From assembly GCA_017617715.1 (NCBI GenBank), contig JAFZVQ010000033.1:1-34825 (forward strand): 34,825 nucleotides of DNA, in the 5' to 3' direction. Shown one piece after another: positions 1,930-5,444 of this stretch; the first letter of the stretch is position 1; each line of letters starts with the position of its first letter. The notes beneath the pieces were generated by a model. It was not told where the DNA came from. It made no database searches and saw nothing but the letters and a program-made list of their open reading frames with translations. Position numbers and translations under genes: made by a program. This DNA comes from Bacteroidales bacterium. Lineage in GTDB: Bacteria > Bacteroidota > Bacteroidia > Bacteroidales > UBA932.

Positions 1930-3300
1930 TTATTTCAGAAAGAGATTGGAGATGAATATCACGATAATCACCGGCGGCACCACCCAGCGCACCAGGAAAT
2001 AGAACACCTTGAAAGCCTTTTCGCTGAATCCCGGCGACCCGCCGCTGATAAACTCTTCGCGCACGTCCGCCTTCTTCATCTTCCAGCCCACGAACAGCGC
2101 GAACGCCAGCGCGCCCAGCGTCATCAGGTAATTCGAAGTCAGGTTGTCGCAGAAATCGAACACCGTTAGACCGAGAATCTTGAAGTTCCCCAGCAGCCCG
2201 AACGACAGCGCGCACGGCACACTGAGCAGCGCCGTCGGCACCAGGAACTCCATCGTCGCCACCAGCCGCTTGCTGCCGAACTGCTCCACGGCATGCTCCA
2301 CGCACACCTCGCAAATCGAAATCGACGACGTCAGCGCCGCCATCAGTATGGCCAGGAAAAAGGCCACCGTGACCAAATAACCCAGCACCGGCGCCCCTTC
2401 GCTCATACGGGCGAAAATGTACGGAAGCGTCTCATACACCAGCGACGGGCCCGCCTCGGGCGCGATCCCGGCAGAGAACACGGCGGGCATGATCGCGAAC
2501 CCCGCAATCAGCGCGAAAGCCGTATCCGACACCGTGGTCCACACTCCCACCTTCATCAAGCTGTGCTCCTTCTTCATGAAGGACGAGTACACCAGTATCG
2601 TGCCCACTCCCAGCGACATGGAGAAGAACGACTGCCCCAGGGCAAATGCCCACCCCCTGGGCCCCAGCCTGCTCATGTCCGGCTTCACCAGGTAGCGCAC
2701 GCCCTCACCGGCTCCGGGCAGCGAGACTGAAAACACCACCAGTGCCAGCATAAGCACGAACAGCAACGGAATCATGATCTTCGTGAAACGCTCGATACCC
2801 TTCTTGATGCCGCCCAGCACGATAAACGCCGTCATCGCAAGGAAAGCGACCCCCATCAGCACCGACTCCCACGGCGACGAAGCCATACGCGGGAACACGG
2901 ACAGCGCGCCTTCTGTGCCCCCGCTGGTCAGCCCGCCGCAAACCGCCCTGAACAGGAAATCCAGCGACCAGCCGCCCACCACGGCATAGAACGACACCAG
3001 TATGAAACTGGAAAACACGGTCAGCGCCCCCATGTACTTCCACTTCGACCCCGGAGCAAGCTGCTTGAACGCCCCGTACACCCCGTGGCGCGCCCGGCGG
3101 CCGATCAGCGACTCGCAAAGGAAACACGGCAAGGCCAGAAACAGGCTGCAGATCACATATGCAACGATGAACGCGCCCCCGCCGTACTCTCCCGCCATAA
3201 ACGGGAAACGCCATATGTTACCGAGCCCGATGGCAGACCCGGCGGTGGCCATTATGAAGGTGAAGGTGCTTCCGAAATTCTCTCGGTTTGGGGCTGGCAT
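1930..3300 (-). CDS. Sodium:neurotransmitter symporter (SNF/NSS) family transporter
   Basis: A 456-residue secondary transporter. The first helix carries the family hallmark GSAIGLGNIWRFPF (residues 21-34), which in LeuT-fold NSS proteins helps form the sodium and substrate sites. At least ten further hydrophobic segments follow, consistent with a LeuT-like 11-12 helix membrane protein. Bacterial relatives take up amino acids such as Trp, Leu or Tyr with sodium; the substrate here cannot be read from the sequence. The start is ATG at 3300. The decayed tail of a folA gene (3306-3440) ends six bases before this start, so the gene probably once followed a folA directly and may have depended on readthrough. 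No TAnnTTTG box is seen just upstream. Confidence 0.92.
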   Translation of the reverse strand: MPAPNRENFGSTFTFIMATAGSAIGLGNIWRFPFMAGEYGGGAFIVAYVICSLFLALPCFLCESLIGRRARHGVYGAFKQLAPGSKWKYMGALTVFSSFILVSFYAVVGGWSLDFLFRAVCGGLTSGGTEGALSVFPRMASSPWESVLMGVAFLAMTAFIVLGGIKKGIERFTKIMIPLLFVLMLALVVFSVSLPGAGEGVRYLVKPDMSRLGPRGWAFALGQSFFSMSLGVGTILVYSSFMKKEHSLMKVGVWTTVSDTAFALIAGFAIMPAVFSAGIAPEAGPSLVYETLPYIFARMSEGAPVLGYLVTVAFFLAILMAALTSSISICEVCVEHAVEQFGSKRLVATMEFLVPTALLSVPCALSFGLLGNFKILGLTVFDFCDNLTSNYLMTLGALAFALFVGWKMKKADVREEFISGGSPGFSEKAFKVFYFLVRWVVPPVIIVIFISNLFLK

Positions 3301-3305
3301 AAACT

Positions 3306-3440
3306 ACTAACTTTTACCTACACCCGGAACTCATATGCCAGACCCGTTTCCGGATCGGTGGCGAGGCCGGATGCTGATTCCAACACCCAAATATCGGAAT
3401 TTATTTCCTAAAATGTCCACCTCGCCCCAAAAACTTTCGC
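3306..3440 (-). pseudogene. folA: Remnant of the 3' end of a second folA (dihydrofolate reductase)
   Basis: The minus-strand reading frame aligns without gaps to residues 116-160 of the intact FolA at 4136-4648; by hand count 27 of 45 positions are identical. Matching blocks include SDIW against SEIW, TDP, GL-YEFRV and V-VS. Two in-frame TAG stops interrupt it: one replaces the proline of YFPEI, and one follows YEFRV. The upstream part of the gene is gone; at 3441 the sequence passes into a dispersed repeat. The copies also differ at many synonymous sites, so this looks like the tail of an older or foreign folA allele and not a recent duplication. It ends six bases before the NSS transporter start. 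Confidence 0.8.
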
Positions 3441-3446
3441 CCCCCC

Positions 3447-3494
3447 CTGTCATTCTGAGCGAAGCGAAGAATCTAAATCCGAAGCGAAGAATCT
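3447..3494 (+). repeat. Dispersed repeat unit A (forward orientation)
   Basis: The unit begins CTGTCATTCTGAGCGAAGCG and runs on with the string GAAGCGAAGAATCT present twice (about 3461-3474 and 3481-3494). Two copies in the opposite orientation are at 3946-3990 and 4093-4150. Short repeats of this type are known to be scattered in many bacterial genomes between genes; their function is unknown. This copy directly abuts the truncated folA remnant. Confidence 0.75.
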
Positions 3495-3569
3495 CTTCCC
3501 CCCTCTCGCTTGTGGGTTCTCCCGTCCCTGTCATTGACACGGCGACCGGTTTGGTCTCATTTTTCATGG

Positions 3570-3603
3570 GTGACGTGAATGTCGCACGGCGCCCATTCAC
3601 GTC
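3570..3603 (+). repeat. Palindromic repeat B, copy 1
   Basis: A 34-nt unit with the perfect 9-bp inverted arms GACGTGAAT and ATTCACGTC around a 14-nt loop. It can form a hairpin. A second, imperfect copy starts 73 nt downstream. Confidence 0.6.
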
Positions 3604-3642
3604 GGTGGCGGTTTTGGCTGGAAAATACCGTGAAATTGGCTT

Positions 3643-3676
3643 GTGACGTGAACATATGGGGTGCCTCATTCACTTC
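3643..3676 (+). repeat. Palindromic repeat B, copy 2 (imperfect)
   Basis: Same length and layout as the copy at 3570-3603. It starts GTGACGTGAA and ends ATTCACTTC, so one arm has a mismatch. The middle (with CATATGGGGTGCC) differs from copy 1, so the arms are better conserved than the loop. Confidence 0.55.
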
Positions 3677-3857
3677 GCGGAATACTGGCTGGAGATGCTC
3701 GATCTGAAGCGTCGGCAATAATCCCAGTTCTTCAAGAAATAGGACTCGAAATGGTGCCTGGACCTTCCCCAAAGGCATCTCCGACCTTCCCCGATGGGTT
3801 CCCGGCCTTGCCTAAAACCCTCCCAGCACTTAGCCGGAGGAACGGAAAACCCGAGGT

Positions 3858-3941
3858 GGGCGGGGAAGGTCCCGAGCGACTTTGAAATTGCGAGCGAAGG
3901 CGAAGCAATTTTGTAGCAGGAGCGAGGGGCCTTTCCCGCCC
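3858..3941 (+). repeat. Long imperfect palindrome C (hairpin element)
   Basis: The outer arms GGGCGGGGAAGGTCCC (3858-3873) and GGGGCCTTTCCCGCCC (3926-3941) are near-perfect inverted repeats. Inside them is a second pair, GAAATTGC and GCAATTTT, giving a nested stem of about 84 nt in total. It carries no ORF. The form is that of a REP- or MITE-like non-coding element. Confidence 0.6.
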
Positions 3942-3945
3942 GGAC

Positions 3946-3990
3946 GATTCTTCGATTTAGATTCTTCGCTGCGCTTCAGAATGACAGGGA
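3946..3990 (-). repeat. Dispersed repeat unit A (reverse orientation)
   Basis: The unit runs GATTCTTCGATTTAGATTCT, then TCGCTGCGCTTCAGAATGACAGGGA. It is the inverse of the unit at 3447-3494 and matches the unit at 4093-4150, so about 500 nt of DNA is bracketed by inverted copies. Confidence 0.75.
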
Positions 3991-4012
3991 TCGGAGCAAC
4001 CTCTCCTCCGGC

Positions 4013-4037
4013 GGAACAAGAGAGGCCGATTTGTTCC
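4013..4037 (+). repeat. Short palindrome D, copy 1
   Basis: The arms GGAACAA and TTGTTCC enclose an 11-nt spacer (hairpin-forming). It lies 25 nt before a second copy of the same design. Confidence 0.5.
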
Positions 4038-4061
4038 CAAAAACGAAAGAATAGCGGAATC

Positions 4062-4088
4062 GGGAACAAGGATAGCCCTTTTGTTCCC
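4062..4088 (+). repeat. Short palindrome D, copy 2
   Basis: The arms GGGAACAA and TTGTTCCC enclose a spacer of 11 nt. The arm sequence matches the copy at 4013-4037 while the spacer differs. The spacer is followed by a run of T (CTTTTG), so on the plus strand it somewhat resembles a hairpin terminator. Confidence 0.5.
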
Positions 4089-4092
4089 GGGA

Positions 4093-4150
4093 GATTCTTC
4101 GATTTGGATTCTTCGCTTTAGATTCTTCGCTACGCTCAGGATGACAGGGA
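4093..4150 (-). repeat. Dispersed repeat unit A that supplies the folA stop codon
   Basis: GATTCTTCG occurs at the start and GATTCTTCGCTACGCTCAGG follows (4111-4130 region), ending ATGACAGGGA. It is the same family as 3946-3990. The folA stop (4136-4138) and the codons just before it lie inside this unit, so the present C-terminal residues of FolA are repeat-encoded. Confidence 0.75.
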
Positions 4151-4648
4151 GACCTGAGGCAATGTCGGCGAGACTCTAACGTAGACCCGAAACTCGTACG
4201 ACAGGCCGGAGGCGGGGTCGGTGAAGAGTTCAGAGCTTGAATCCAAATGCCAGATTTCGGAGTCGATTTCCGGAAAATACGCATCCGCCCCGGAAACTTT
4301 AGTGTGGACGTGGGTCACGTACATCTTGTCCACCAGGTCAATGGCCGCCTTGTAGACCGCGGCGCCGCCGATGATGAAGGCCTTAGGCGCGGGCTCGGCC
4401 GCCTCGAAGGCGGCGTCGAGCGAGCGGACGCAGCAGACGCCGGGGATGTCGCGGCTGGTCAGCACGATGTTTTTGCGGCCGGGGAGGGGCCGGCCGATGG
4501 ACTCCCAGGTGCCGCGGCCCATGATCACGGGGCAGCCCAGGGTCGTGCGCTTGAAGTACTTGAGATCTTCGGAAATATGCCAGGGGAGCTCCCCCCGGAT
4601 GCCGATGGCGCCGTCGTCGGCCACGGCCACGATCAGACACTTTTCCAT
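4136..4648 (-). CDS. folA: Dihydrofolate reductase
   Basis: This 170-residue enzyme reduces dihydrofolate to tetrahydrofolate with NADPH, recycling the folate oxidised by ThyA. Visible hallmarks are GIRGELPWHISEDLKYFKR (residues 16-34), with D28 aligned to the catalytic Asp27 of E. coli; GRGTWESIGRPLPGRKN (44-60); and the cofactor motif FIIGGAAVYK (91-100). ATG at 4648 was chosen because it starts the first beta strand (MEKCLIVAVA) and lies one base after the thyA stop; an in-frame ATG at 4699 would be inside thyA. The last dozen residues (about 159-170, ending QVSLSS) run past the usual end of the family. They come from a dispersed repeat that also provides the stop codon. It is the last gene of the ychF-thyA run. 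Confidence 0.95.
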   Translation of the reverse strand: MEKCLIVAVADDGAIGIRGELPWHISEDLKYFKRTTLGCPVIMGRGTWESIGRPLPGRKNIVLTSRDIPGVCCVRSLDAAFEAAEPAPKAFIIGGAAVYKAAIDLVDKMYVTHVHTKVSGADAYFPEIDSEIWHLDSSSELFTDPASGLSYEFRVYVRVSPTLPQVSLSS

Positions 4649-4649
4649 G

Positions 4650-5444
4650 CTACACAGCCACCGGAGCCTTGATTGCGGGCCAGGGGTCGTAGCCCTCAAG
4701 GGTGAAATCTTCGTAACGGAAATCGAAGAGGCTCTTGACCTCCGGATTCAGGATCATCCGCGGCAGGGGGCGCGGCTCGCGGGAGAGCTGCTCGGCCACC
4801 TGCTCGAAGTGGTTGAGGTAGATGTGGGTGTCGCCGGTGGTGTGGATAAACTCACCCGGCTGCAGGCCGCAGACCTGCGCCAGCATCATGGTCAGAAGCG
4901 CGTAGGACGCAATATTGAACGGCACCCCGAGGAAAGTGTCGGCGCTGCGCTGGTAGAGCTGGCAGCTGAGCTTCCCGTCGGCCACGTAGAACTGGAACAG
5001 GCAGTGGCACGGAGGGAGCGCCATCTTGTCGATGTCGCCGGGATTCCAGGCGCACACCAGCATGCGGCGGGAGTCGGGGTGGTTCCGAATCAGGTCGATG
5101 ACCTGCGACAGCTGGTCGATACTCCGGCCGTCCGCCGCCTCCCAGCTGCGCCACTGGTGCCCGTAGACGGGCCCCAGGTCGCCGTTCTCGTCGGCCCACT
5201 CGTCCCAGATCGTGACCTTGTTGTCGTGGAGGTAGCCGATGTTGGTGTCGCCGGCGATGAACCAGAGCAGCTCGTGGATGATGGAACGCAGATGCACCTT
5301 CTTGGTGGTCAGCAGAGGGAAACCCTCGCTGAGGTCGAAGCGCATCTGGTAGCCGAATACGCTCTGGGTGCCGACTCCGGTGCGGTCGGACTTGATGACT
5401 CCGTGTTCGCGGATATGCCGCAGCAAATCAAGATATTGCTTCAT
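4650..5444 (-). CDS. thyA: Thymidylate synthase
   Basis: At 264 residues it is the same length as E. coli ThyA. It methylates dUMP to dTMP using methylenetetrahydrofolate and releases dihydrofolate, the substrate of the adjacent folA product. Motifs seen are the phosphate-binding [10 protein letters not shown] (19-28), [12 protein letters not shown] (58-69), the catalytic C146 in LPPCHCLFQ, then [18 protein letters not shown] and the late [12 protein letters not shown] segment. All active-site blocks are intact. The start is ATG at 5444, seven bases after the stop of the preceding lipoprotein gene, and folA starts one base after the stop. Cytoplasmic; essential for thymidine prototrophy. Confidence 0.98.

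Follow-up and report, generated by a model that had tools for sequence, protein, structure and literature searches.

Directly before the gene of an NSS transporter lies a displaced, non-coding 3' end of folA, which appears to have persisted as the carrier of a putative NSS promoter after a duplication of the folA tail (rough probability 0.6). The fragment is real, and it is probably older than the species in which it is found. Judged by its sequence it is an ordinary relic, and one that has probably been kept as regulatory DNA; the promoter role is what we infer as the reason for the retention of the tail. The window, that is, the whole stretch of DNA analysed, comprises 34,825 nt. It belongs to a genome of 2.32 Mb that is 77% complete, from a bacterium that is a probable rumen inhabitant and whose genus is represented by more than 400 genomes. 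On the minus strand, thyA (5444-4650) is followed by folA (4648-4136), an insert of approximately 0.7 kb and the NSS gene (3300-1930). The features are the following:

1930..3300, minus strand: NSS transporter gene, 456 aa, Pfam SNF (PF00209); proposed target of the promoter
3306..3440, minus strand: decayed second folA 3' end, codons 116-160, two in-frame TAG, directly before the NSS gene
3387..3413, minus strand: 27-nt block kept in the fragment, with identity to folA of 15 relatives
3387..3401, minus strand: word AATTCCGATATTTGG, proposed core of the NSS promoter, with the NSS start 86 nt downstream
3388..3399, minus strand: TTCCGATATTTG within the word, the 12-base core
3388..3395, minus strand: GATATTTG within the word, resembling the Bacteroidota -7 box TAnnTTTG
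3441..4135, no strand: insert between both folA tails, a mosaic of dispersed repeats with inverted repeats (3445-3477 and 4117-4149) at its ends
4136..4648, minus strand: intact folA, 170 aa, DHFR_1 (PF00186), with its final codons and stop inside a dispersed repeat (arm 4117-4149)
4650..5444, minus strand: thyA, conserved neighbour upstream of folA

The minus-strand translation of 3306-3440 reads AKVFGARWTF*EINSDIWVLESASGLATDPETGLAYEFRV*VKVS, and the earlier note had matched this gap-free frame with two stops to residues 116-160 of FolA. That match holds. A search of the whole genome with FolA (E up to 10) returned two places, namely the intact gene (4139-4648) and 3300-3440, the latter covering query residues 116-162 with 57% identity, two TAG codons and E=5.5e-10; the fragment is the only second folA match found in the genome. 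A BLAST-type check for DHFR, which the same note had proposed, agrees: tblastn of FolA against the locus matched residues 117-160 (E=1.2e-10). In local alignment, 27/44 residues are identical to the own FolA and 32/44 to the FolA of the sister species, which is the nearest. The DHFR homology is above chance and the frame is both broken and incomplete (two TAG, no codons before 116), as in a pseudogene. The note's argument that many synonymous differences imply divergence as a working gene did not bear out. Over 36 gap-free codons, 13 are the same, 7 synonymous and 16 nonsynonymous (stop included) against the own folA, and 14, 12 and 10, respectively, against the sister folA, so synonymous differences alone are no proof of divergence as a working gene.

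A chance match to folA is ruled out by the E value of the genome search and by a shuffle test of the sister remnant (below), and an artefact of MAG assembly is ruled out because the sister genome RUG12750 has a remnant at the same place. The fragment is not part of a dispersed repeat either. Searching 3290-4200 with blastn against the own genome listed 115 matches, self included (40 of 116 candidate stretches were scored), and the listed non-self matches all fall in query 144-864, which is window 3433-4153 and outside the body of the remnant. The insert carries a short repeat, CCCTGTCATTCTGAGCGNAGCGAAGAATCT (e.g. 3445-3474 and 4120-4149), with 78 copies in the genome (43 + 35) at ≤ 3 mismatches and none in the reversed control. 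Inverted copies of this repeat flank the insert (3445-3477 and 4117-4149), and one of them gives folA its last codons and stop.

The sister species RUG12750 (genome G263, locus L092, contig CACZMF010000012.1 of 65,529 bases) has 98.9% identity to the own species in ThyA, 85% in FolA and 83% in NSS. Its folA and NSS genes are separated by an insert of 3.9 kb that contains two Rhs-associated-core pieces (TIGR03696) and has three pieces in common with the own insert, each ≤ 25 nt. At L092 5173-8658 these two pieces, with small unassigned ORFs nearby, resemble a pair of orphan Rhs tip cassettes. Immediately before NSS lies a shorter folA remnant. Its alignment with the sister folA begins at the last base of codon 115, contains three one-base gaps and ends inside the W codon of NSDIW. 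The first codon of the own fragment is 116, and the sister remnant begins within one codon of this point; since both remnants begin at approximately the same codon, they point to one event before the species split, and the event is thus likely older than that split. With the conserved word masked, the alignment of the sister remnant with the sister folA outscored 1000/1000 shuffles (two-base blocks), and those with the own and L003 folA were likewise above all 1000. For other folA genes the score was reached by 1 (L085), 75 (L009) and 47 (L164) of 1000 shuffles, and against near-clade folA (L021, L074) the test shows zero signal. Between the sister insert and the remnant there is a hairpin resembling a terminator, with a U run and a folding energy of -15 kcal/mol (4/200 shuffles fold equally well), which is absent from the list of a simple terminator scan; behind such a hairpin, NSS would need a promoter in the following ~100 nt. 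Sampling of 398 further relatives added no sister species beyond those known.

The commonest arrangement among the relatives examined is folA immediately upstream of NSS. The NSS start lies ≤ 320 nt after folA in 24/29 loci of the genus (L003-L031) and in 52/80 loci of a GTDB scan (L093-L172); no NSS gene was found downstream of folA in 21 of these 80 loci, with at least 3 kb examined. A junction of the ancestral type that the earlier note had supposed is therefore common. In the comparison with sister genomes that the note suggested, RUG12750 has the remnant at the same place, with the 3.9-kb insert between folA and NSS. In a clade of near relatives (the near clade, L064-L079; ThyA 91.7-95.8% where read), the folA-NSS gap measures 10-275 nt in 12/16 loci, and the other four are without folA in reach of NSS. 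Among them, folA and NSS of G194 are separated by 1.6 kb of other genes; the ORFs there (L174 2366-3611) include a 149-aa lipoprotein-like one (by eye), and the gap before NSS retains the 13-mer TTCCGATATTTGG. In G004 and G011, folA and NSS lie apart from each other, and the 9 kb examined in G290 yielded no folA match. A second NSS gene start follows the first in L003, L004, L006, L012, L015, L020 and L031.

Displaced tails were searched in 126 downstream stretches of 0.14-8.8 kb (the own and those of 125 loci, some genomes twice). They were not found to be common in relatives: the only strong hit is in the own stretch, in a search that short or decayed remnants would escape. The sister piece is weak here (E 0.06-0.08), no better than scattered matches elsewhere (E 0.001-0.1), and a strong match in L123 proved to be its own folA gene, shortened by the ORF call. 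Sixteen genomes with two or three FolA matches were rechecked. Ten contain one gene in two pieces, three a single match, G172 a weak short second piece, and G084 and G193 two full genes. Two full-length folA in one bin may reflect duplication or bin contamination.

The word AATTCCGATATTTGG occurs in relatives inside intact folA, where it is read as AAT TCC GAT ATT TGG and encodes NSDIW. Fifteen of 107 distinct FolAs have NSDIW, for which 72 spellings are possible, and all 15 use AATTCCGATATTTGG; these do not amount to 15 independent events, as the rows are related. A sixteenth FolA has NCDIW and differs from AATTCCGATATTTGG by one base. Five-residue control words that are present in 15/16 rows and do not overlap with NSDIW (VIMGR, PVIMG, MGRTT, IMGRT, GGASV and GASVY) display 7-10 spellings, the commonest in 4-6 rows, with rows chosen by protein. 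The own intact folA reads GAC TCC GAA ATC TGG, with three mismatches in its best match to TTCCGATATTTGG, and has thus lost the word; the fragment retains AAT TCC GAT ATT TGG. In the sister the word is present in intact folA, and its core is also found in the remnant, 20 nt before NSS.

The word is associated with the NSS gene. Its 13-mer TTCCGATATTTGG is found in 15 of the 107 distinct folA genes exactly and in three with one mismatch, and in 17/18 of these NSS starts 31-159 nt after the folA match, the eighteenth being the sister. In 19/400 genomes of the genus the exact 15-mer was located at 20 sites, of which 17 are in intact folA, one is in the fragment and two are elsewhere (G186, without an evident NSS tie, and G224 contig 89, before another gene). 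At 16/17 intact-folA sites the NSS start follows 111-233 nt downstream, the seventeenth again being the sister. Nucleotide conservation beyond the protein, counted over related rows, and this tie to NSS are both what an intragenic promoter would display. Six near relatives (L183, L195, L202, L204, L205 and L206) have TTCCGATATTTG between folA and NSS, 21-28 nt upstream of the NSS ORF, several near relatives have a block of about TTTTTTCCGATATTTGG...GTTAGTTAGTAGATG before NSS in common, and L068 and L071 have TATCTTTG, a perfect TAnnTTTG, at the same pre-NSS place. In agreement with this tie, the word is absent from L089, which belongs to the FolA group of own and sister and has no NSS match downstream, and from L157, where NSS overlaps folA. 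It is also missing from the near-clade loci L064, L065 and L067, where NSS follows folA after 10-20 nt, which speaks against our reading. A general promoter word is ruled out by its rarity per genome, with two occurrences of TTNCGATATTTG in the own genome, none of its reversed control there, and 1-5 in each of 16 other genomes (37 in total vs 5 for the reversed control).

The 27-nt block around the word is 22-25/27 identical between the fragment and the folA of the 15 relatives, compared to 34-51/81 outside the block, and is better kept than its surroundings against 14/15 of them (p<0.01). The difference is not significant for the fragment against the sister (22/27 and 51/81, p=0.098) or the own folA (20/27 and 47/81, p=0.17). 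Between working genes, sister vs L003, the block reaches 24/27 and the outside 54/81 (p=0.027).

Primary (sigma-ABfr) promoters of Bacteroidota consist of a -7 box TAnnTTTG (PMC7366714, PMC9723704) and a TTTG at about -33 (PMC7366714). GATATTTG agrees with the -7 box at 5/6 defined positions and deviates at the first base, while the embedded form has no clear -33 TTTG at the usual spacing (by eye). Based on GATATTTG, with its single deviation, and on the perfect TATCTTTG of the two near relatives at the same place, we read the word as a putative NSS promoter that is normally embedded in folA, which we consider the best reading. T-rich codons are retained, the codon of F127 ending in A/T in 17/18 word-bearing folA vs 5/87 others, a circular comparison as the class was chosen by the word. 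Other possible roles of the word, in place of a promoter, are those of an operator or mRNA element. Against a promoter speak the deviating -7 base and the embedded form without a clear -33 element, the sister intact folA, which still has the word despite the second copy before NSS, and the block, which is kept only weakly better between the fragment and the sister and also varies less than the rest between working genes.

The promoter reading suggests the following course. In a set of relatives, the NSS promoter would reside within intact folA, in the last quarter of its coding part. In the common ancestor of the own species and RUG12750 the folA tail would have been duplicated, with unrelated DNA coming between the copies. 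From then on the coding copy could dispense with the word and the second copy with its frame. The upstream copy would have kept the enzyme, with the word lost in the own species; in the downstream one the word would have been kept while the reading frame was lost.

The alternative that the earlier note favoured is that an incoming folA inserted upstream and that the resident folA, which abutted NSS, was reduced to its last 135 bases. This replacement is compatible with the promoter reading and we regard it as possible, if somewhat doubtful. Part of it stands, as the fragment is a true folA tail and the remnant is common to the sister, and gene trees lend it some weight. In the NSS tree, own and sister belong to a 13-row group together with the near clade (100/100), in the ThyA tree they are unplaced within a 26-row group that includes the near clade (98/90), and in the FolA tree they are outside an 89-row group that holds the near clade (100/97). 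With smaller sets the FolA core places them with L089 and the L003 group (100/99). A tree that joins own and sister FolA to the near clade is rejected for the whole protein (p-AU 0.0127) and for the core alone (p-AU 0.0139); these values are optimistic as the test group was named after the identities had been seen. This conflict between the FolA and NSS placements makes an exchange of folA in the ancestor of own and sister likely. The fragment itself, however, clusters with the FolA of own and sister (97/91), and a tree that joins it to the near-clade FolA type is rejected (p-AU 0.030). A relic of near-clade-type folA is thereby ruled out, and the fragment does not derive from another FolA lineage than the present gene. 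Since it belongs to the own/sister FolA lineage, partial duplication fits at least as well as replacement, and a swap for a closely related folA of the same lineage is possible.

Replacement also draws on another clade, where two folA core types occur with one tail type, hinting that cores were swapped and tails stayed. Mean aa identity is 0.65 in the core and 0.71 in the tail for t1-t2, 0.87 and 0.73 for t2-t2, and 0.75 and 0.49 for t2-near, and the fragment start (codon 116) is close to the core/tail boundary. Topology tests of core against tail are weak: p=0.061 for t1+t2 on the core, and p=0.044 for t1+own+sister+L089 on the tail, which becomes 0.31 without the word codons. A core/tail mosaic of folA is thus no more than suggestive. 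We tentatively consider a wider scheme in which the promoter, for long embedded in the gene of an essential enzyme, was freed by duplication and, in addition, folA cores were exchanged in the genus while the promoter-bearing tail stayed beside NSS. If true, the promoter of a downstream gene would fix where the upstream gene can recombine.

A tandem or partial folA duplication in the common ancestor, followed by chance decay to a functionless tail, agrees with the single lineage of the fragment and present FolA tails and with the unrelated gap filler in both species (dispersed repeats in the own, Rhs-core pieces in the sister). We consider it unlikely, as the best-kept part of the fragment is the word with its upstream spacer, and the sister remnant has retained this same part in spite of its much smaller length.

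The 3' end of icd in E. coli serves as attachment site of an integrative element, and icdC is the displaced gene 3' end beside prophage e14, the insert having restored the gene. A comparable scar, with the folA 3' end as attachment site and an element that brought its own tail, is very improbable: the geometry of intact gene, insert and displaced tail matches, as does a start at about one codon in two species, but no integrase was found among the sister-insert ORFs scanned (seven against Pfam with zero families; six against NCBIfam, with the Rhs-associated core on two ORFs and a match far below cut-off on a third), the own insert consists of dispersed repeats, and the downstream stretches searched yielded no other displaced tail.

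The arrangement proposed here, a tail kept for its promoter, thus resembles icdC/e14 in having a displaced gene 3' end beside an insert and differs in the integrase, which was not found in the sister-insert ORFs scanned, and in a displaced piece on which a proposed regulatory word has been kept. Another parallel is provided by sigma54 promoters within E. coli genes (PMC4591121) and by internal start sites in Bacteroides thetaiotaomicron, where 21% of mapped starts are inside genes (PMC7366714). The likeness comprises a promoter-like site within the upstream coding sequence, in sense orientation and conserved between species, and a long 5' leader for the downstream gene. In contrast to these, the coding copy and the proposed promoter copy were here apparently split by duplication, the coding copy then losing the site, and the site is tied to one fixed five-codon spelling across species. 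To sigma-ABfr promoters (PMC7366714, PMC9723704) the likeness lies in GATATTTG, with TATCTTTG in its place in two relatives; the deviating first base of the -7 box and an embedded form without a clear -33 element set it apart.

Intragenic promoters are common in transcript maps, and it is seldom clear whether they constrain codons or shape gene decay. Here, one word has a fixed five-codon spelling in many species; some relatives have it within the gene, others outside, and it may explain why a piece of a pseudogene survives. Caution is thus warranted with pseudogene fragments beside genes, as they may be regulatory DNA. No report of such a case was found in a literature search on promoters, gene remnants and Cryptobacteroides promoters that covered few subscription journals.

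Some further observations were made on the genus and the insert. The FolAs of the genus comprise two DHFR core types (SIGRPLPGRxNIVLT and YFSLPxPLKGRKNIVLN), both within one ThyA group. A recurring leader like TGTGGCGAATAATTACGATATTTGTGGCGAAA, with GTGGCGAA units, is present in L179, L185, L187-L189, L192, L193, L201, L207-L209 and L230; in L179, L185 and L209 it stands before ORFs whose starts resemble KKxPIVALIYDFDG. A scan of the whole window against Rfam at gathering thresholds gave zero matches, and this includes a dispersed repeat of ~85 nt forming a long hairpin (GGGCGGGGAAGG...CCTTTCCCGCCC) at 3858-3945, which is without an Rfam match at these thresholds. The hairpin repeat is found at about ten more places of the own genome (L034-L036, L040-L045 and L048), and the folding of the stretch 3834-3990 beats 200/200 shuffles (z -3.4).
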